A stretch of DNA of 64,000 bases. Origin: Fimbriiglobus ruber (GTDB lineage Bacteria > Planctomycetota > Planctomycetia > Gemmatales > Gemmataceae). Location of the stretch: NCBI RefSeq assembly GCF_002197845.1, contig NZ_NIDE01000019.1, positions 372,001-436,000 of the forward strand. Direction: 5' to 3'. Position numbers and translations under genes: made by a program. Numbering within the stretch: the first letter of the stretch is position 1; each line of letters starts with the position of its first letter. The notes beneath the pieces were generated by a model. That model did not search any database. It saw nothing but the letters and a program-made list of their open reading frames with translations, and was not told the origin of the DNA. Below, in pieces: positions 43,525-52,183 of the stretch.

Positions 43525-44301
43525 CTAACCCCGCCTGGGATGGATCAGCCGCGGTGGGTGGTTGTCCAGGCAGTTCTGAAACCATCTCGGGAGACGGTCC
43601 TGCGACACCCGCAACTGACAAGTGCCTTCCGGGTCGAACTCGGCTAACCAGACCGGCACGCTTCCCGAGTTATCGAAGAAGTAGGCCCGATACGCCTGCG
43701 CACGAGCGACGCTCGCCAGATCCAGGCAACGGGCGTAGCGCTCGCGGATCTTGTCCTCGGGTACTGCGTGCCCACCGATCTGCACACGGGTGCGGACGCG
43801 GGCGACGTTGAGTTCCGCCGTACTCGTGCAGACGAAGTACAGGTAGGTCTTGTAGCCCTCCGCTCTGGCCCGGCCGAAGAACTCCACCTTGCTCGGGTGC
43901 GACATCACGGTCTCGAACGAGAACGAGTCGCCGCGCCGCATCAACTCCTCGCGCAAGAAATCCACGACGGCCGCGGCGAGATACCCGTCGGCCCGCGGCG
44001 CCCACACCACGGACCCATCCACCACGGCTTCACAGAAGAACGGGTGGTCGGCCGCGAGCCGCCCGCCGGCCCGGAGGGAATCGCACAGCCTCTCGAACGG
44101 CACCGCCACGTCGAACCGCGCCAGGTCGAGGCCGGCGCTAACGAGCGCGCGCTCCACCTCGTCGGCGTTGAGGTAGTGATTCAGCCGGAACAGCCCGGTC
44201 GCCGGAGACCATTCCCGGGCCAGTGACCGGATGATGCTCGACTTTCCCGAGCCGTTCGGGCCGGCGAACATCCGCAACCGTTTGGCCCGAGTGTCGGTCA
44301 T
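43525..44301 (-). CDS. zeta-toxin-like P-loop kinase
   Basis: 258 residues from the ATG at 44301, which overlaps the stop of the large WD40/GTPase/TIR gene as ATGA. Walker A FAGPNGSGKSSIIRSL is at residues about 12-27, followed by the zeta-family pattern NADEVERAL and SFSFETVMSHPSKVEFFGRARAEGYKTYLYFVCT, which match the UDP-GlcNAc kinase/zeta toxin family. RVRTRVQIGGHAVPEDKIRERYARCL supplies the Arg-rich region that contacts phosphate. Family members phosphorylate nucleotide sugars or other small molecules. No epsilon-like antitoxin lies next to it; instead it is coupled to a giant sensor-like protein, so it may be an effector or a housekeeping kinase recruited to it. Confidence 0.85.
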   Translation of the reverse strand: MTDTRAKRLRMFAGPNGSGKSSIIRSLAREWSPATGLFRLNHYLNADEVERALVSAGLDLARFDVAVPFERLCDSLRAGGRLAADHPFFCEAVVDGSVVWAPRADGYLAAAVVDFLREELMRRGDSFSFETVMSHPSKVEFFGRARAEGYKTYLYFVCTSTAELNVARVRTRVQIGGHAVPEDKIRERYARCLDLASVARAQAYRAYFFDNSGSVPVWLAEFDPEGTCQLRVSQDRLPRWFQNCLDNHPPRLIHPRRG

Positions 44302-47300
44302 GGCTGCGGCCCGGGCGTGCCGTCAGACTGCGGGTCGTAAGGCGTCGTTGTGCCGTCGGCGTGCAGCCGGACCAGCCGGCCGTCCTGTTCCACGACGACC
44401 GATTTTTGGATCGCAAACGCCGCGTCCAGCGACTGACGGCCGACCTGTTGCAGGGCCAGTCGCATCCGGCTTTCTACCGGCGATTGGTCATCGTCCTCCG
44501 TCTCGCCATCCGGCCCGCGGCGGCTAAACTCGTCTTTCGCCAAACGCTGTTTCCAGTGAATCGCTGCCGGGTGGCGCGGGTCGATGCGGTAGAGGGCTAG
44601 TAGCAGGTCCAACGCGGTGTCGAAGTAGCGATCGTCGTTGCGGAAGTCGAAATATACGTCGGTTTGCAAAGCGGGTGGCAGCGACTCCTTCGGCTCGCCG
44701 GCCAGCAGTAGAAGGGTGACGGATGCCTTTTCGGCCTCGGTCCCCAACAGCCGGGCCGAGATCAGATCCGCTTCCGCAGCAACGACGGCCTCCGTGTTCG
44801 GGACTTGGTTCTCGTACTTCCGCCGATAAGCTGGCGTGCCGACGATTAGCACCCGGTCCGCTTGCTCGACGCGACCCACGAAGCGCGAGCCGCTGGCCCC
44901 GAGGTGGGCGTTGTCCCCGCGTTCAAGCACGACGGGAATGCCGGCCTTTTCCAGGTCGGACGCCAACCGGCGTTCGACCCACCGCTCGTATTCGGCGTTC
45001 TCCCGTGCGTAGCTGACGAAGCATGTGGGTACTGGCCGCTCCTCAGCTTGGGCGAGCCGCAATAGCTCGTAGATCACTTCCTCGAACCGCGTCCGCCGTT
45101 CGGCGACGGCGCCCTCGTGGGTGATCGCCCGGCGGTCCGCCGGCCGCACGCTGAGGGGCTCGTCCGGCGGGTACGCGACGCTATTACCGCACTCCTCGCA
45201 GAACACATTTACCTTCCCCAACTTCATCCGCCGAATCATCACCACCCGGTCTACCGGCGTCCCGCACCGCGAACACCGGACCGGGCGCAGTCGCCGCACG
45301 TTCACACTCCGGCGACTCAAAACCTGCTCGACCAACCCCTCGAACACCGCCCGAACCTGGGCGCCGAGCGTGGGGCTGAACAGCAGGACCAGTGTGCGCT
45401 CGGTGTCGTCGCGGACCTGCCGCACCCCGCACAGGTCGTTATGATCGGTCGTGAACCATGCCACGTCCTGAGCCTGATCGGTGCGGAGGAACAGGTTCGT
45501 GTAGCCCAGGAGTACGACCAGCGAGGCGAAGGTGTTCTCCGTCGAGCCGGTGAGGACGTACAAGGGTCCGTCCTCTGTCACGAGGTCGTCCCGCTCCGGC
45601 TTCTTCAGGTTCATCAGGTCGGGGAAGACCAGTAGCCGCATGTCGCCCCACGCCTCGCGGAAGCAGCGGTAGCTCAGCCGGTTGGCGAGGAACGCCGTGA
45701 TCGTGCCGTCGAGCAGCAGAGCCCGGTCGGACTCGGAGAGTACCTCTAGCTCCCGAAAGCGGTAACTGTTGTCGAGCAGGCGGGACTCCTCGACCGCGCC
45801 CAGCCCGCGCGAGTTCCGTCGGGCTTCGAGTACGATCGAAGACGCCAGGTTGTTCAGGAGTTCGGGGACAAGCAGAATGCGCTCGTCGCCGGTCGAGAGC
45901 ATCAGCAGCCGCACGAAACCCTGGCTGCTCAAGTGCCGGACGGCGGTCAATAACTGGGCGTCGGTCAACGATTCCAGAGTCCCCGCAGGCAATCGCCGCG
46001 CGCTCTGATCCGGACGGTTGCTCGTCAATTCCTCCCGAAGTTCTGCGGTCGAGAAGATGATCTGCTTCCGGGTGCGGTTCTCTTTCAAGGCCAGTACGAA
46101 GTCTTTGATACGCTTGAAGACGGCGTCGGTCGAAACGGCCGGCTTGTCATCCCAGGGGATTGCCCGCTTCATGCGATCCAGCAGATCGTCCAGCCCAAGC
46201 CCCGAGGCGGCGCTCGTAGCCACCCAGCCCCCGGCGATGCCTTGCCGACGGCAGAACTGGTCGAGTTCCTCGCGGGTGAGTACGGGGTGCCCGCGATCCA
46301 CACGGGCCGCGACCAGGATCTTCGGGCACTCGGGAGGGAGTTGACGAAGCCAATACTCGGCACTGCCTAGCGGGTCGCGGGTATTGGTCGGGTCGAACAG
46401 TATTAGAGCCAGGTCCGCGTCCTGGATCGAGAGTGCGTGAATCAGCCGATAGTCGGGCTGACCGGCGAGATCCCACAGCACGGCTTCACACTGTGTGCCA
46501 TCTTTGCGTGTCTGGGCGAGTTGACCGAGTACCCAGAATTGTTGCCCGTGGGTCGAATCGTGTTCGCGGTACTCGCCATGCGCCAGCCGCCAGCCGAGCC
46601 CCGTCTTTCCGACCCCGGAATCGCCGACGAGTACGATTTTCGCGGTGGTGTTGTGGACAGTTTGGTATCTCGGGTTGGCTACTCCACTTGTCGACTCGGT
46701 GGATGTGCGGCCCGCGCCGTGACCCAAAAGTATGTCGAAATCCAATTCCCAGAAGCGAATGAGACGGCTGTTGTGTTTGTCTTCTAATGTCGATGCCGAA
46801 GCGTCCGTCGCCAGTATGGGGCGGTCCGGATGAAAGCACAGGGCTGCTACGTTAATAAATTGCTGCTGCGGCACTGGAATAATTGCGATACACTCCCACG
46901 ATTGGCGACTCCAGAGCCGGACTGTTCCGTCAAAACTCTTGGAGGCGAGCAATGCGGCCTTCTGGCAGAACGCAAGCGCCGACACTGCGTGCGTGTGCCC
47001 TTCGAGAGTACGCATCAGCTTGCCGCTCTCCGGGTCCCACAATCGCACCGTCTTGTCATCTCCTCCGCTAGCCAATACGCTGCCCCGCGGGTCGAACGCC
47101 ACGCTGAAGACAGCGTGCGTGTGCCCGAGAGTGTGGAGCAGCTTGCCACCATCTGTGTACCATAGCCGGACTTTCTTGTCATACCCACCGCTGGCCAACA
47201 CACCACCCCGTGGGTCGAATGCCACGCTGTATACATATTCCCTGTGCGCTTCGAGGGTACGCAGCTCACCGCTCTCTAGATCCCACAACCTTACCGTCTC

Positions 47301-47711
47301 ATTTCCCCCACTGGCCAATGCCCCGCCTCGCGGGTCGAACGCCACGCTCCAGAAATTGCCCGTGTGCCCTTCGAGAGTGCTGAGCAGCATTCCGCTCTCC
47401 ACGTCCCACAACCGCACCGTCTTGTCCCCCCCACTGGCCAACACCGCGCCACGCGGGTCGAACGCCACACTGCGGGCATTGTTCTTCTGCCCTTTGAGGG
47501 TACGTAACAGCTCGCCGCTCTCCACGTCCCATGTCCTTACCGTGCTGTCATTTCCGCTGCTGGCCAATAATCCGCCCCGCGGGTCGAACGCCACGCCATT
47601 AACCACGCCCTTGTGCCCTTCGAGGGTGCGCAGGAGCTTCACGCCCGGTGGCAGTTCCTCCGTCGCGTCGCTGGCTATCGGTCGTGGTTTGAACTGTGGA
47701 TTTTTCGCCAT
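44298..47711 (-). CDS. WD40 / Roc-like GTPase / zinc-ribbon / TIR-SEFIR multidomain protein
   Basis: 1137 residues. Residues about 25-330 form a WD40 beta-propeller with seven repeats of the type LEGH..VAFDPRG..LASGG-DKTVRLWD. A small GTPase follows, with P-loop VLVGDSGVGKTGLGWRL near 365, switch II LWDLAGQPDYR near 413, and a specificity-loop-like VAARVDRG, as in Roc or Rab-like modules. About 550-780 is a helical COR-like or winged-helix region. A four-Cys zinc ribbon (CSRCGTPVDR..CEECG) lies at about 812-838. A TIR/SEFIR domain begins near 892 (PTCFVSYARENAEYERWVERRLASDLEKAGIPVVLE, then ADRVLIVGTPAYRRKYE). The architecture resembles NLR-like immune receptors: propeller sensor, GTPase switch, TIR effector. 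Whether TIR has NADase activity is not determined. A zeta-like kinase is translated from its stop. Confidence 0.88.
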   Translation of the reverse strand: MAKNPQFKPRPIASDATEELPPGVKLLRTLEGHKGVVNGVAFDPRGGLLASSGNDSTVRTWDVESGELLRTLKGQKNNARSVAFDPRGAVLASGGDKTVRLWDVESGMLLSTLEGHTGNFWSVAFDPRGGALASGGNETVRLWDLESGELRTLEAHREYVYSVAFDPRGGVLASGGYDKKVRLWYTDGGKLLHTLGHTHAVFSVAFDPRGSVLASGGDDKTVRLWDPESGKLMRTLEGHTHAVSALAFCQKAALLASKSFDGTVRLWSRQSWECIAIIPVPQQQFINVAALCFHPDRPILATDASASTLEDKHNSRLIRFWELDFDILLGHGAGRTSTESTSGVANPRYQTVHNTTAKIVLVGDSGVGKTGLGWRLAHGEYREHDSTHGQQFWVLGQLAQTRKDGTQCEAVLWDLAGQPDYRLIHALSIQDADLALILFDPTNTRDPLGSAEYWLRQLPPECPKILVAARVDRGHPVLTREELDQFCRRQGIAGGWVATSAASGLGLDDLLDRMKRAIPWDDKPAVSTDAVFKRIKDFVLALKENRTRKQIIFSTAELREELTSNRPDQSARRLPAGTLESLTDAQLLTAVRHLSSQGFVRLLMLSTGDERILLVPELLNNLASSIVLEARRNSRGLGAVEESRLLDNSYRFRELEVLSESDRALLLDGTITAFLANRLSYRCFREAWGDMRLLVFPDLMNLKKPERDDLVTEDGPLYVLTGSTENTFASLVVLLGYTNLFLRTDQAQDVAWFTTDHNDLCGVRQVRDDTERTLVLLFSPTLGAQVRAVFEGLVEQVLSRRSVNVRRLRPVRCSRCGTPVDRVVMIRRMKLGKVNVFCEECGNSVAYPPDEPLSVRPADRRAITHEGAVAERRTRFEEVIYELLRLAQAEERPVPTCFVSYARENAEYERWVERRLASDLEKAGIPVVLERGDNAHLGASGSRFVGRVEQADRVLIVGTPAYRRKYENQVPNTEAVVAAEADLISARLLGTEAEKASVTLLLLAGEPKESLPPALQTDVYFDFRNDDRYFDTALDLLLALYRIDPRHPAAIHWKQRLAKDEFSRRGPDGETEDDDQSPVESRMRLALQQVGRQSLDAAFAIQKSVVVEQDGRLVRLHADGTTTPYDPQSDGTPGPQP

Positions 47712-47907: not shown

Positions 47908-49611
47908 TTACCCCACGATCGTTTTTCGCCGCTTGATGTAGTCCCACACGACGTACCGATCGAGTTCCCGGCCGGTGGTGAAGACGACGCGGCCCTTCGT
48001 GGCTTCCGCCATCTTGTATGCGAAGCGGATGTCCTCGCGGGACTGGTTCCAGGTCGAAAGTAAGAAAATGTTGATCGTGATGCCTTCCCGGGCGCAGAGC
48101 ATGGCTTCGCGCATGGTCGCCCGCTCCGTCCGCGGGTCGGGCGGGTAGAGCATGTAGAGCGTGCTGCCCTCGAAGTGGGCAGTGGGCAGCCCGTCGGTGA
48201 TGAGCATGATCTGCCGGTTCGGCGTGTCGCGGACGCTCAGATACCGACGGGCCGTTTGCAGCGCGTACTGGATGTTCGTGAAGTGCCAGGGGATGTCGAA
48301 CTCGGACACGTCCGGCTTACTCATGTCCTTCCACAGGCGGACGACCGGGCTGAACAGCGTGACCGGCTTGGGCATCAGGGACGCCACTTCGGTCACCGCC
48401 CGCGGCTTGGCGAACGTGTACATCTCGATGAACTGGAGGAAGTCGCCCGGGTATTCCGAGCGGATCAACCCGTCCAGCGCCAGGCCCATCCGCTTGACGT
48501 TCACGTACAACCCGTCGTAGCGCATCGAGCCGGACATGTCGAGCAACACGCACGTCGCCGCCTTCGGGTAGTTCCGCGTCTCGTGGACTTCAATGTCTTC
48601 CGGCTTCATGCGGACCGGCAGGCCGGGGCCGCCGCGGAGCAGGGCGTTGGTGAAGCTGGCCGGGATGTCCATGTGCGCGACCGAGTCGCCGAACTCGTAT
48701 TGTTTCGTTTTCGCGGACTCGGTCGCCCCGTCCCCGGTCACCGCGTCCGGGTGCCGCCCGGTCCGGGACGCCCGCAGGTCGCTGAAGATCTGGGTCAGAA
48801 CCTTCGATTGGAAGACGCGGAACGCCTTCGGGGTCATCTGGAACCCCTTGCGGGCGTCCCCTTCGAGCCCCTGCTGGCGGGCCATCTCGCGGACGTAATC
48901 CTCGACCCGTTGCTGAAACTGGCGGAGCCCTTCGACGTCCGCCTCGGACGCGAACTTGGACAACTCGTCGAGGTCGATGATGCCGATCTGGGCGGTCTTC
49001 TTCGCCTCGGCGAGTTGCTTGAGGAGTTTGTCGATCTCTTCGAGTTCTTCCTTGATCGCGAGCGCTTCCGGAACCGTCATCTTCTTCCGGCCGGTGAACG
49101 TGTACTTCCCGGCCAGTTCGTCCACCTGGTACTTGTCGCCCAGGTTCTGGACGAGTTGAACGAGGCCGCGCGCGAACGCCCCGCGCTCGTCGCCGGCTTC
49201 GTAATAGAGTTCTTCCAGGTCGCGGAGTTGTTCTTCCTTGAGCGCCTGCCGAAACTTCTTTTGCAAATGCTGTGGCGGATTCATCCCGGCGGCCCGGTCG
49301 TCAACGGCACGCTTGGCCGCGTTCTGGGCGGCCTTGGTCTCGTATGTTTCGAGGATCTTGCGCTTCCGCTCTTCGAGCATTTGCCGCAGCGCGTCGATGC
49401 TCGGCCCGAGCCCCGCGATCTCACTGATGTCGAGGCGGACCGCCCGGGCGAGTTCTTCCTCGGTCAGGTCGTTGAGGTCGCCATATTCGAGTAAATGCTC
49501 GAAAGCCGGCGAAACCAAATCGGGGGGCGGTTGCGACGGACTGGGGAAACGGACCGGGTCGTATTTCTGATAGGTATGAATGATCCCGCCGAGGCGGTTC
49601 GGGTTGCTCAT
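47908..49611 (-). CDS. VWA-domain protein
   Basis: 567 residues from the ATG at 49611 (MSNPNRLGGIIHTYQKYDPVRFP); the frame upstream is not protein-like. The N-terminal 330 residues are helical and charged. The C-terminal third is a von Willebrand factor A domain with an intact MIDAS: DMSGSMRYDG near residue 355, Thr in DIPWHFTNIQYAL and Asp in IMLITDGLPTAH. Similar proteins, often next to MoxR AAA+ ATPases, assist metal insertion or complex assembly, but no MoxR gene is adjacent here. Cytoplasmic, as no signal is seen. Confidence 0.87.
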   Translation of the reverse strand: MSNPNRLGGIIHTYQKYDPVRFPSPSQPPPDLVSPAFEHLLEYGDLNDLTEEELARAVRLDISEIAGLGPSIDALRQMLEERKRKILETYETKAAQNAAKRAVDDRAAGMNPPQHLQKKFRQALKEEQLRDLEELYYEAGDERGAFARGLVQLVQNLGDKYQVDELAGKYTFTGRKKMTVPEALAIKEELEEIDKLLKQLAEAKKTAQIGIIDLDELSKFASEADVEGLRQFQQRVEDYVREMARQQGLEGDARKGFQMTPKAFRVFQSKVLTQIFSDLRASRTGRHPDAVTGDGATESAKTKQYEFGDSVAHMDIPASFTNALLRGGPGLPVRMKPEDIEVHETRNYPKAATCVLLDMSGSMRYDGLYVNVKRMGLALDGLIRSEYPGDFLQFIEMYTFAKPRAVTEVASLMPKPVTLFSPVVRLWKDMSKPDVSEFDIPWHFTNIQYALQTARRYLSVRDTPNRQIMLITDGLPTAHFEGSTLYMLYPPDPRTERATMREAMLCAREGITINIFLLSTWNQSREDIRFAYKMAEATKGRVVFTTGRELDRYVVWDYIKRRKTIVG

Positions 49612-49707
49612 GCGCGGCCTGCCGTGGGAGTCGGGCCGGTCACGGTTGGCTGCCGGCACACCCCCATTGTAGACGGGCCGCGCCGCGAGAAACACGCGGT
49701 TCGGTCG

Positions 49708-50520
49708 TTATCCGCACAGAACCAGGAGTTCGCCCGTCCCGCCGTTGACGAGATCGCCGCGGTAGCAGCGAACGTCCCGGGCGACAAATCGATCGGTGGC
49801 TCGCACGTCCAGGGTCCGAAGGTGTGACAATAGGAGGCCGAGAAACGCGGGGCGGTAGTCGCAACTCCATTGCATCCCGGGCGCCAGTTCCGGCGGCGGA
49901 CCGCCGACCAGGATCGTCCCGCGCTTCATCCCCGCTCCGGCCCCGCGGCCGACCCCGCCGGCAGCCACGAGCGTCCCCGCGATCATCGAGGCGGCTGCAA
50001 ACTCACCGATCGCCCCCTCGACGACGATGATGCCGCGGCGCATCAACAAGCCGACCTCGTGGCCCGCAGCCCCGCGAACCACGATCGACCCGCCCCGCAT
50101 TCCCCGCCGGCTCCCGCGGTACGCCGCCCCGACCTGGTTTCCCGCGCGGCCGGCCACCTCGATCGCCCCACCCGCCATCTCGGCACCGAGCCAGTCCCCG
50201 GCATCGCCCGCGACGGCGAGCCGCCCGCCGGTCATCCCCGCCCCGGCGTGCATGCCGACGTTGCCCTCGACCGTGATCGTCCCCGCGGTCATGCCCGCGC
50301 CGACGTGCTTGATCGTGTCGGTCTCGCCCGCAATGTGAAGATGGCCGTCGTCCGCGGAGCCGGTCACGGCGAAAAACTGGCCGACTTCCTCGCGGTGGTT
50401 GCCGTGGTAGACGGGCAACTTTGAGATTTCTAGTGGGCTCAATCCACGAACCCGGTCCGGCGTCACGCCTTCGAGTTCGAGCGGGATCGGGGACGATTGG
50501 CGGAGAGTCAGCGTCAGCAT
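49708..50520 (-). CDS. fhcC: FhcC-like formyltransferase/hydrolase complex subunit C (GXGXG domain)
   Basis: 270 residues from the ATG at 50520. The protein is a GXGXG-motif beta-helix: repeated units such as HIAGETDTIKHVGAGMTAGTITVEGNVGMHAGAGMTGGRLAVAGDAGDWLGAEM and NQVGAAYRGSRRGMRGGSIVVRG. This is the signature of subunit C of formylmethanofuran dehydrogenase (FwdC/FmdC) and of FhcC of the H4MPT-linked formyltransferase/hydrolase complex. Many planctomycetes carry that C1 pathway for formaldehyde oxidation. No fhcA, B or D gene lies within the window on either side, so the complex is split or encoded upstream of another unit. Cytoplasmic. Confidence 0.85.
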   Translation of the reverse strand: MLTLTLRQSSPIPLELEGVTPDRVRGLSPLEISKLPVYHGNHREEVGQFFAVTGSADDGHLHIAGETDTIKHVGAGMTAGTITVEGNVGMHAGAGMTGGRLAVAGDAGDWLGAEMAGGAIEVAGRAGNQVGAAYRGSRRGMRGGSIVVRGAAGHEVGLLMRRGIIVVEGAIGEFAAASMIAGTLVAAGGVGRGAGAGMKRGTILVGGPPPELAPGMQWSCDYRPAFLGLLLSHLRTLDVRATDRFVARDVRCYRGDLVNGGTGELLVLCG

Positions 50521-50698
50521 GGGGAAAGCCGGGTGGGTCGTCGGCAATCGGGAGGTTGATACTCTACGACCTCTACGACCCACGGGGGGCTCCTGGCCGA
50601 ACGCCCGTCGGAACGCGCCGCCATACATCGGAGTTTGTGTCGAACCCCCCTCGCTCGGTAAAATCCCTTCTTTCTCCCGCGCCGAAAAGGATTTGAAC

Positions 50699-52183
50699 GT
50701 GGCCGATCGCTGGGCTCTCGTCGTAGCCGTCGATAAATACCTCGACCCCGCACTGAACGGCGTGACCTATGCCGAGGCGAGCGCGCGGGCCGTGGCAGAC
50801 GCGCTCGCCGGCGCGGGGTGGCCCAAGGCCAATCAAATCCTTCTCTTCGGCCAGCAAGCTACCAAGACCGTTCTGGAATCCCGGCTAGGAAAGCTCAAGA
50901 AGGCGGTCCGCCGCGGCGACGACCTGCTGGTTTTCGTCACAGGGAAAGGATTCTCGCGGGGCGGAGCCGGGTACCTCGCTTGCTGGGACACCCAGGCGGA
51001 CGACCTGACCGACACCGCCGCGGCCGTGGCGGACTTGTTCGCTGCCCTGAACGCGACCAAGGCCGCCCGGGTCACCGTGTTGCTCGACGTGGGCGAAACC
51101 CCGCTGCCGTCGAACCCGGTCCCCGCCGACACCTTGCCCCAACTCGACGTCGACCAACTTCACGCCCTTTTCGATGACTCGGCTCGGGCGGTCTGCCTCA
51201 TGGCGTGTGCGCCAGACGAAGAGTCTTATGCCCCGGCCGCGCTCAAGAAAAGCGCGTGGGCTCATCTCGTCGCCGACGCGCTCTCCGGTCGCACGGCGAA
51301 GGCAGCCGACGCCGGCGGCCGTGTTACCGCCCGCTCCCTACACGATTTCGTCGGCGACGAGTTGCCGCGGACGTTGCGCAAGCACTTCGGTGCGTCAGCC
51401 GTCCAGACGCCGCAGCTTTACGGCGCGTGCCCCGCGGACGCGATTCTGGCGGACGTGTCGGGCCGGGTTGGGGGGGCGGAGAACGGCTTCCTGCTCGACC
51501 CGGCCCGCCTGAGCCGCGTGGTGTTTCGGTCCGAAAGCTCGGGGCGGGTCAAGGATCTCACCGGGTTCCGCAAATCGTTCCAGATGCCGACGAGTGCGAC
51601 GCCGTCGGCCCGGAAGTTCATTGCCCGACTCGCCGCCGAGGACGTGAAAGCCGACCTGGACGAAGTCTTCGCTGCGGTCCGTGAACAGGTGGGTTACAAG
51701 CGCAAAGACCTGGACGTTTCCACCGGCGGTGATGGAGCCGGAACGCTGCGAACGCCCGATTTTGAATACACCGTATCCGCCGGCCTCGACCCGGCCGACC
51801 CGGCGCGGGTGACGTGGACCCGGGAGGTCGGCCAGTTCGCCGACCCGGGGTTCGTTCGCGGCCCGGGCTTCGAAGCCGTGTTCGGCAAGCTGTTCGACCA
51901 ACTCGTCTTCGAGTTCGCGGTCCCGGTCGACGTGTCCGGCCTGGTCGACCGGCTCGAAGACCGCTTGCCCAAAGGTGTGAAGATTCACGTCGCCAGCGAC
52001 GGCACGACCTGCGATGTGGCGCTCGCGGGATTCGCCGGGCGGGTGACTGTGGGCAAGGACACATTGACTGTCCGCGGCCGCGGGGCCGACTCGGCCGGGT
52101 TGCTCGACCAGTTCCTGGCGTTCTTGCAGACGGTCGGGCCGCTCGGCGAACCGGCTGCGTTGCCGCCGCGGAAAAAAGCTTGA
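50699..52183 (+). CDS. caspase-fold (C14-like) protein lacking the catalytic dyad
   Basis: 494 residues from the GTG at 50699, chosen for AAAGGA 7 bases upstream and because the fold begins at once (ADRWALVVAVDKYLDPALNGVTYAEASARAVADALAGAGW). The p20-like order is intact: ILLFGQQATKTVLESRLGKL, then DLLVFVTGKGFSRGGAGYLACWD, TAAAVADLFAAL, VTVLLDVGETPL. The catalytic His (usually SGHG) is replaced by Lys in TGKG near residue 80, and the catalytic Cys (usually DxCxS) is replaced by Gly in LDVGET near residue 129. It is therefore a predicted pseudoprotease. The C-terminal half has no recognised domain. It is divergent from fhcC, with 178 bp between starts. Confidence 0.8.
   Translation: MADRWALVVAVDKYLDPALNGVTYAEASARAVADALAGAGWPKANQILLFGQQATKTVLESRLGKLKKAVRRGDDLLVFVTGKGFSRGGAGYLACWDTQADDLTDTAAAVADLFAALNATKAARVTVLLDVGETPLPSNPVPADTLPQLDVDQLHALFDDSARAVCLMACAPDEESYAPAALKKSAWAHLVADALSGRTAKAADAGGRVTARSLHDFVGDELPRTLRKHFGASAVQTPQLYGACPADAILADVSGRVGGAENGFLLDPARLSRVVFRSESSGRVKDLTGFRKSFQMPTSATPSARKFIARLAAEDVKADLDEVFAAVREQVGYKRKDLDVSTGGDGAGTLRTPDFEYTVSAGLDPADPARVTWTREVGQFADPGFVRGPGFEAVFGKLFDQLVFEFAVPVDVSGLVDRLEDRLPKGVKIHVASDGTTCDVALAGFAGRVTVGKDTLTVRGRGADSAGLLDQFLAFLQTVGPLGEPAALPPRKKA

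Follow-up and report, generated by a model that had tools for sequence, protein, structure and literature searches.

A two-domain caspase-fold protein of Fimbriiglobus ruber with both predicted catalytic residues replaced, and its relatives in the Planctomycetota

Human c-FLIP(L) is a pseudo-caspase that pairs with caspase-8. Among prokaryotes, the closest described proteins are the pseudo-orthocaspases, in which Tyr-Ser is the commonest replacement of the catalytic dyad (Klemencic et al. 2019, PMC6426788); 90% of them are reported from Alphaproteobacteria or Cyanobacteria, and the string "planctomycet" occurs nowhere in the main text of that paper. The EACC1-associated caspases, which combine an N-terminal caspase with one of up to 50 different partner domains, form a second described group (Kaur et al. 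2020, PMC7159879). That paper proposes caspase self-cleavage as the release step for C-terminal effectors, and suggests that caspase domains which have become inactive in conflict systems act as dominant negatives or bind peptides. Bacterial pseudo-caspases have therefore already been described. The family presented here and its C-terminal domain are new as far as searched, as are the two-domain combination, the Arg-acid pair at the dyad positions and the solo forms at the same locus; no title in the literature searched describes the family, most subscription papers and supplements lying outside that search.

The window, meaning the whole stretch of DNA that was analysed, comprises 64,000 nucleotides of Fimbriiglobus ruber, a member of the Gemmataceae. 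The features considered are as follows.

50699..52183, forward strand: pseudo-caspase gene, GTG start, stop included, 494 aa, an open frame
50685..50691, forward strand: likely ribosome-binding site AAAAGGA, 7 bases before the GTG, from sequence and inference
50699..51472, forward strand: caspase-like p20 domain, residues 1-258, from the AlphaFold2 model, structure matches, paralogue alignment and profile NF047832
50945..50947, forward strand: Lys83 at the catalytic His position, by alignment (41 orthologous rows: Arg 32, His 2)
51092..51094, forward strand: Gly132 at the catalytic Cys position, by alignment (41 orthologous rows: no Cys, Asp/Glu 25, gap 5)
51491..52180, forward strand: C-terminal domain, residues 265-494, without a Pfam match, modelled as two beta-alpha-beta4-alpha halves
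49708..50628, reverse strand: formylmethanofuran dehydrogenase subunit C gene, the divergent neighbour (TIGR03122, E 1.9e-82)

The start codon recurs at the matching place in most of the orthologous frames extracted. A preliminary description, made from the sequence alone, had treated the frame as one caspase-fold protein; that holds for the p20, while the frame in fact contains two domains, of which the C-terminal one (about residues 265-494) had been overlooked.

Structural modeling supports a caspase-type p20. In an AlphaFold2 model of the full-length protein built from 6 input sequences (mean pLDDT 81.1, pTM 0.59), residues 3-256 superpose on Arabidopsis metacaspase 4 (6w8r_B; VIA-align Z 21.9, rmsd 3.1, 226 aligned) and residues 1-253 on paracaspase MALT1 (3uo8_C; Z 21.8). 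Foldseek returned 48 matches at E<=0.001, all titled caspase, paracaspase MALT1 or metacaspase save three chains of 3bij, a structural-genomics entry whose title names no fold. The order of strands and helices that had been read from the sequence is thus borne out by the model, in which K83 lies within a strand spanning 75-87 and G132 at the end of another spanning 124-132. In profile searches, the focal protein lacks a PF00656 match at E<=1, so a survey relying on PF00656 only would miss it, and some orthologues pass the cut-off of that profile, for example G022:C3 (2.5e-7) and G018:C109 (2.7e-7). NF047832 is the only NCBIfam profile that matches the p20 (E 1.3e-13, 50.9 bits, cut-off 140). 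Of the earlier label "C14/CHAT-like", the C14-like part is retained and the CHAT part is dropped, since PF12770 gave no match at E<=1. A DUF3000 match (E 0.0094, below cut-off) was set aside as chance, and sequence searches for solved relatives of the whole protein yielded none that was convincing.

To establish which residues occupy the catalytic positions, the focal protein was aligned with P0002, a dyad-intact paralogue that sets the register. TGKG falls opposite AGHG (K83 for H82) and LDVGET opposite LDCCES (G132 for C131), confirming the two substitutions proposed earlier, SGHG to TGKG and DxCxS to LDVGET. The orthologues extend this picture. The p20 could be read in 41 Gemmataceae orthologues. 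At the Cys position these have D in 23, S in 5, G in 3, E and R in 2 each, P in 1 and a gap in 5, with no Cys in any row; at the His position they have R in 32, P in 4, H in 2, and Y, K and A once each. Both dyad residues occur together in none of the 41 rows, which indicates that dyad loss is more than chance, and to judge from these sequences such loss is the shared state of the orthologous family. The caspase-fold model, Lys83 and Gly132, and the loss across orthologues together sustain the designation as a pseudo-caspase. An alternative His/Cys pair in the active site would have contradicted it; this was checked by column conservation only, and no universal His or Cys column was found. The best-kept Cys is C95 (36/41 rows), which P0002 also has besides its catalytic Cys, and Asp130, just before the lost Cys, is present in 37/41 rows, with Glu in one more.

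What replaced the dyad differs between subclades (R/D, R/S, R/G, P/S, Y/S, A/R and others). Arg with Asp or Glu is the commonest pair, in 25/41 rows. A clade of 25 rows (support 100/99), chosen from the tree and not by its residues at positions 83 and 132, has Arg at 83 in 25/25 and D 21, E 2 and S 2 at 132. As far as sequence can tell, Arg83 with an acid at 132 is in this clade a mostly fixed charged pair and not random decay. Arg83 need not be special, being one of 39 invariant columns among the 253 p20 columns of the clade.

The protein shares features with each of the described systems. As in the pseudo-orthocaspases (PMC6426788), a prokaryotic p20 has its dyad replaced and its modelled fold kept, and loss has occurred repeatedly; a prokaryotic p20 with both dyad residues substituted, which defines that group, is what alignment and model predict here. 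Unlike in that group, the commonest replacement is Arg plus Asp/Glu, and the p20 is joined to a C-terminal domain that has no counterpart in Pfam. Measured against an active peptidase C14, the modelled fold is present, whereas the PF00656 score, the His expected at the end of strand 3 and the Cys expected after strand 4 are absent. The arrangement of an N-terminal caspase and a C-terminal partner domain recalls the EACC1-associated caspases covered by NF047832. However, the p20 scores 50.9, far short of the 140 required, the gene on its 5' side is that of the divergent formylmethanofuran dehydrogenase subunit and no same-strand EACC1 gene, and the partner domain is constant in the focal family. 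Chain B of 3h11, which we take to be the c-FLIP(L)/caspase-8 complex, is among the structure matches of the focal model. As in c-FLIP(L), a caspase fold appears to have lost its dyad, but no death-effector domain was matched in the focal protein.

Genomes of the order and a sample of the phylum were searched for the family. Seventy of 102 genomes of the order match the focal protein. A copy including the C-terminal domain, as read from the match table, is present in 45 of the 102, a count that includes the window's own genome, omits G033 (whose copy groups with dyad-bearing relatives) and admits G040 (two contig pieces) without regard to the clade of its copy; the remaining matches are p20 only. 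Among 392 genomes drawn from the phylum, 11 contain the C-terminal domain, the window's own included. The ten others divide into five with the two-domain form (L064-L067, L069) and five with the domain alone, as judged by open frames (L068, L070-L073). No relatives were confirmed on viral contigs.

Selection was assessed on relatives, with Nei-Gojobori counting. The ratio dN/dS was 0.043-0.258 for the p20 and 0.009-0.254 for the C-terminal domain in the same 15 pairs, which remained of 16 after one proved saturated; the pairs are hand-picked close rows with shared members, values with dS above about 1 are unreliable, and the window's gene was left out, its nearest orthologues being too distant. 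By these sequence comparisons, purifying selection acts on the p20 in relatives. Within the two-domain family, both dyad residues occur only in L006 (the paralogue P0002), L065 and L067. A tree of 46 two-domain rows, rooted by midpoint or on an assumed outgroup, places these three in a clade with L055, L064, L066 and L069 that draws on several families of the phylum. Their nearest rows in the tree are L064, L066 and L055, all without the Cys. The residue lost is the Cys in L064 and L055 and the His in L069, while L066 has lost both (Tyr/Ser). If loss is assumed to be irreversible, the Cys was lost at least 4 times (L055, L064, L066 and the Gemmataceae lineage; counted by eye). When regain is permitted, parsimony counts 4 changes at the Cys position, 4 at the His position and 3 when the two are scored jointly, and it makes no decision between loss and gain. 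The Tyr/Ser pair of L066 (G482), which lies outside the order, is an independent convergence on the described pseudo-orthocaspase pair; its sister L065, of the same genus, keeps the dyad.

Of the two domains, the C-terminal one is the more conserved. In all ten Gemmataceae orthologues sampled, identity to the focal protein is higher over the C-terminal domain than over the p20 (e.g., 64 vs 51%); for the three dyad-intact relatives the corresponding values are 27 vs 36, 29 vs 30 and 25 vs 33%. A Pfam scan of 21 members of the domain gave single weak matches at most (best E 0.034), and a search with the C-terminal profile found no convincing relative among solved structures. Modelled alone (mean pLDDT 85.7, pTM 0.81), the domain runs through beta-alpha-beta4-alpha twice. 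That element order fits the TATA-binding protein (TBP). In VIA, TBPs are the best matches to the model (Z up to 6.8 over 84-87 residues), below the level at which the tool is trusted. TBP, Bet v 1-like and phosphoglucomutase structures all match the model, each weakly, and would belong to one fold class in SCOP. Against BFVD, the model gave 7 matches at E<=0.001 with query TM-scores of 0.20-0.31, four of them nameless and none named as a TBP; proteins named viral TBP appear only further down, at ranks 11 and 25. The idea that the two halves are duplicates at the sequence level was rejected (hhalign probability 0.2%), so their apparent symmetry rests on the element order of the model only. We accordingly treat a TBP-like fold as a lead from modelling.

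Additionally, the domain occurs by itself within the Gemmataceae. At L057 and L058, it stands alone at the syntenic locus beside a pyrimidine-nucleoside phosphorylase gene, one end of which lies no more than about 0.1 kb from the solo frame, too close to accommodate a p20. Placed separately on a tree rooted on an assumed outgroup, L057, whose source genome shows 7% contamination, falls inside an 18-row Gemmataceae clade (94/94), and L058, on a long branch, joins L046 (94/84), just short of the mark set by the tree tool. Because both are placed within the Gemmataceae and have no p20 at the locus, one or two losses of the p20 are probable in this family. At L058:6048-8292, the stop codon of the solo domain shares one base with the start codon of a purE-type gene (AIR carboxylase), and a purK-type gene follows.

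Apart from the window, 42 Gemmataceae loci have at least 0.7 kb of upstream flank (L035 was too short; L060, without the gene, was not counted). In 23 of them a phosphorylase gene is found upstream in divergent orientation, the phosphorylase family having been assigned from one member. In 22 of the 23 the matches are less than 0.6 kb apart, and in one they are separated by 2.7 kb. Where the flank reaches at least 4 kb upstream (15 phosphorylase loci), a cytidine deaminase gene (11) and a uracil phosphoribosyltransferase gene (9) with the same orientation are also present; both are absent from L046, L047, L048 and L053. The uracil phosphoribosyltransferase gene is absent at L057 and points in the opposite direction at L058. 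No phosphorylase gene was found at any of the six testable loci of the dyad-bearing group (L055, L059, L064, L065, L066, L069), nor was there a phosphorylase match in the window's genome, although the same query was positive in a same-genus genome and in the genome from which the query came. The association of the focal gene with the phosphorylase gene is old and not obligatory.

Caspase-fold paralogues were surveyed in the window's genome and in others. The window's genome encodes eight PF00656 proteins, of which five (L002, L003, L005, L006, L007) keep His and Cys by motif, lending motif-level support to the earlier expectation of active paralogues. The dyad is incomplete in the other three, L001 (H/G), L004 (Y/G) and L008 (H/R) (G000:C17 and C14); since these lack the Cys, several pseudo-caspases coexist in this genome. 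P0002 (L006; G000:C19, L059:7592-9103) lies about 126 kb from the focal gene on the same contig, has the same two-domain layout with 33% identity over 449 columns, and passes the PF00656 cut-off; it differs from the focal protein in its intact AGHG and DCCESG motifs. Its surroundings include RepA_C-type and ParA-like genes and a PIN-domain gene. Specifically, L059:7592-10315 encodes P0002 and, next to it in the same orientation and downstream, a PIN_12-domain protein; the pair is possibly a caspase-plus-nuclease module on a mobile element. Among the genomes of the order searched, only the window's has a dyad-intact two-domain form.

In seven orthologue-bearing genomes (G007, G016, G023, G045, G046, G052, G053), a wide PF00656 search came back blank; it covered genomes 87-100% complete and was lossy, recovering six of the eight PF00656 proteins that the window's genome has. 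A more restricted search gave nothing over the cut-off in the seven, and a repeat search found none in two of them, with a control of 8/8. With P0002 as the query, a second p20-like frame appeared in four (G007, G016, G023, G046), both P0002-query frames of G007 being its CHAT matches. CHAT matches occur in six of the seven, including G045, G052 and G053, where the P0002 query matched only the orthologue. Taken together, the P0002-query frames and CHAT matches give each of the seven genomes some caspase-fold candidate.

Integrating these results, we lean on balance towards a non-proteolytic, vertically inherited two-domain planctomycete protein of which, as the sequences suggest, the C-terminal domain is the working part. 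The ancestor would have been a working protease of the caspase type, with this domain as its partner at the C terminus, by analogy with the bacterial conflict systems in which caspase self-cleavage has been proposed to release an effector. In the Gemmataceae the protease would have been switched off and the protein domesticated; the C-terminal domain would then do the work by binding a partner or ligand, and the p20 would remain as a structural element for holding, dimerising or docking it, one that can be lost altogether. The protein thus probably works by binding, not cutting. In many relatives the gene neighbours pyrimidine salvage genes, which gives a lead, and no more, to the partner or ligand. 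The L057 and L058 loci, which keep the C-terminal domain without the p20, speak against the p20 as the essential part. Conversely, constraint on the p20 in close pairs almost equals that on the C-terminal domain, and the p20 may therefore matter more than this reading says.

The preliminary description had proposed a scaffold or decoy, and the corresponding alternative, in which the dead p20 pairs in a c-FLIP-like, dominant-negative manner with an active caspase-fold protein, above all P0002, is rather unlikely. The shared layout of P0002, the five dyad-keeping PF00656 proteins of the window's genome and the candidates in all seven genomes checked would supply partners, and a dominant-negative role is among those proposed for inactive conflict-system caspases (PMC7159879). 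However, the dyad-intact two-domain form is rare and within the order's genomes confined to the window's, three of the seven genomes (G045, G052, G053) offer only CHAT proteins besides the orthologue, and L057 and L058 keep the locus without a p20. That the C-terminal domain determines what the protein does is more probable than a decoy action of the p20. The neighbourhood invites another explanation, that the protein is a regulator or ligand-binding partner of pyrimidine nucleoside salvage, divergently transcribed from the phosphorylase gene. The 23 divergent loci, the deaminase and phosphoribosyltransferase genes beyond them and the purE-type overlap at L058 agree with it, but 19 of the 42 loci and the window have no phosphorylase gene there, four of the 15 with longer flanks carry neither the deaminase nor the phosphoribosyltransferase gene, and ancestral gene order, with some loci near-copies, explains the pattern equally well. 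With no DNA-binding motif identified, and with a focal gene that outlives its neighbour in the window's genome, where the phosphorylase query gave no match, we regard this role as improbable.

Two further alternatives concern the p20 itself. A protease with altered chemistry, using other residues of the cleft, would account for purifying selection on the p20 of relatives and for the persistence of Asp130 or Glu at that position; the dyad positions nevertheless differ between subclades and no His or Cys column is universal, making such an enzyme very improbable. A functionless, decaying gene is the hardest to credit of all: the catalytic residues are gone and the selection figures come from relatives and not from the window's copy, yet open frames persist in dozens of genomes and dN/dS in relatives is 0.04-0.26.

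Returning to the non-proteolytic two-domain protein, a more specific and speculative version, to which we attach little probability, would make the C-terminal domain a duplicated TBP-like module that binds nucleic acid or nucleotides, drawn from a caspase-linked conflict system and domesticated in the Gemmataceae beside pyrimidine salvage genes, the protease being killed (with Arg-Asp/Glu at the former active site in one clade) and then discarded in some lineages. If true, the family would preserve a stepwise record from a death-type protease to a housekeeping binding protein. Furthermore, one family unites dyad-intact, half-lost, fully lost and p20-less forms, all with one recognisable domain, and so offers a natural series for asking what use a caspase fold has once cutting is gone. 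Because a PF00656 survey would pass over this protein, the spread of bacterial pseudo-caspases may be underestimated.

An association of the family with the window's own neighbours was considered and rejected, the relatives' flanks often being only 1.5 kb: the search with window neighbours found only a DUF1080-type gene in the flanks of L012, L014, L015 and L026 and weak matches to protein kinases (26-29% identity) flanking L016, L040, L047 and L053. Two genes upstream of the focal gene, on the other strand, window positions 47908-49695 (reverse strand) encode a protein that matches vWA weakly, short of the Pfam cut-off, and for which the flanks of the relatives compared held no counterpart. 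Positions 44298-47711 (reverse strand) encode a 1137-aa protein that combines WD40 repeats, a Roc/Ras-like GTPase and a bSEFIR match, an architecture presumably of the kind seen in multi-domain signalling or conflict proteins.
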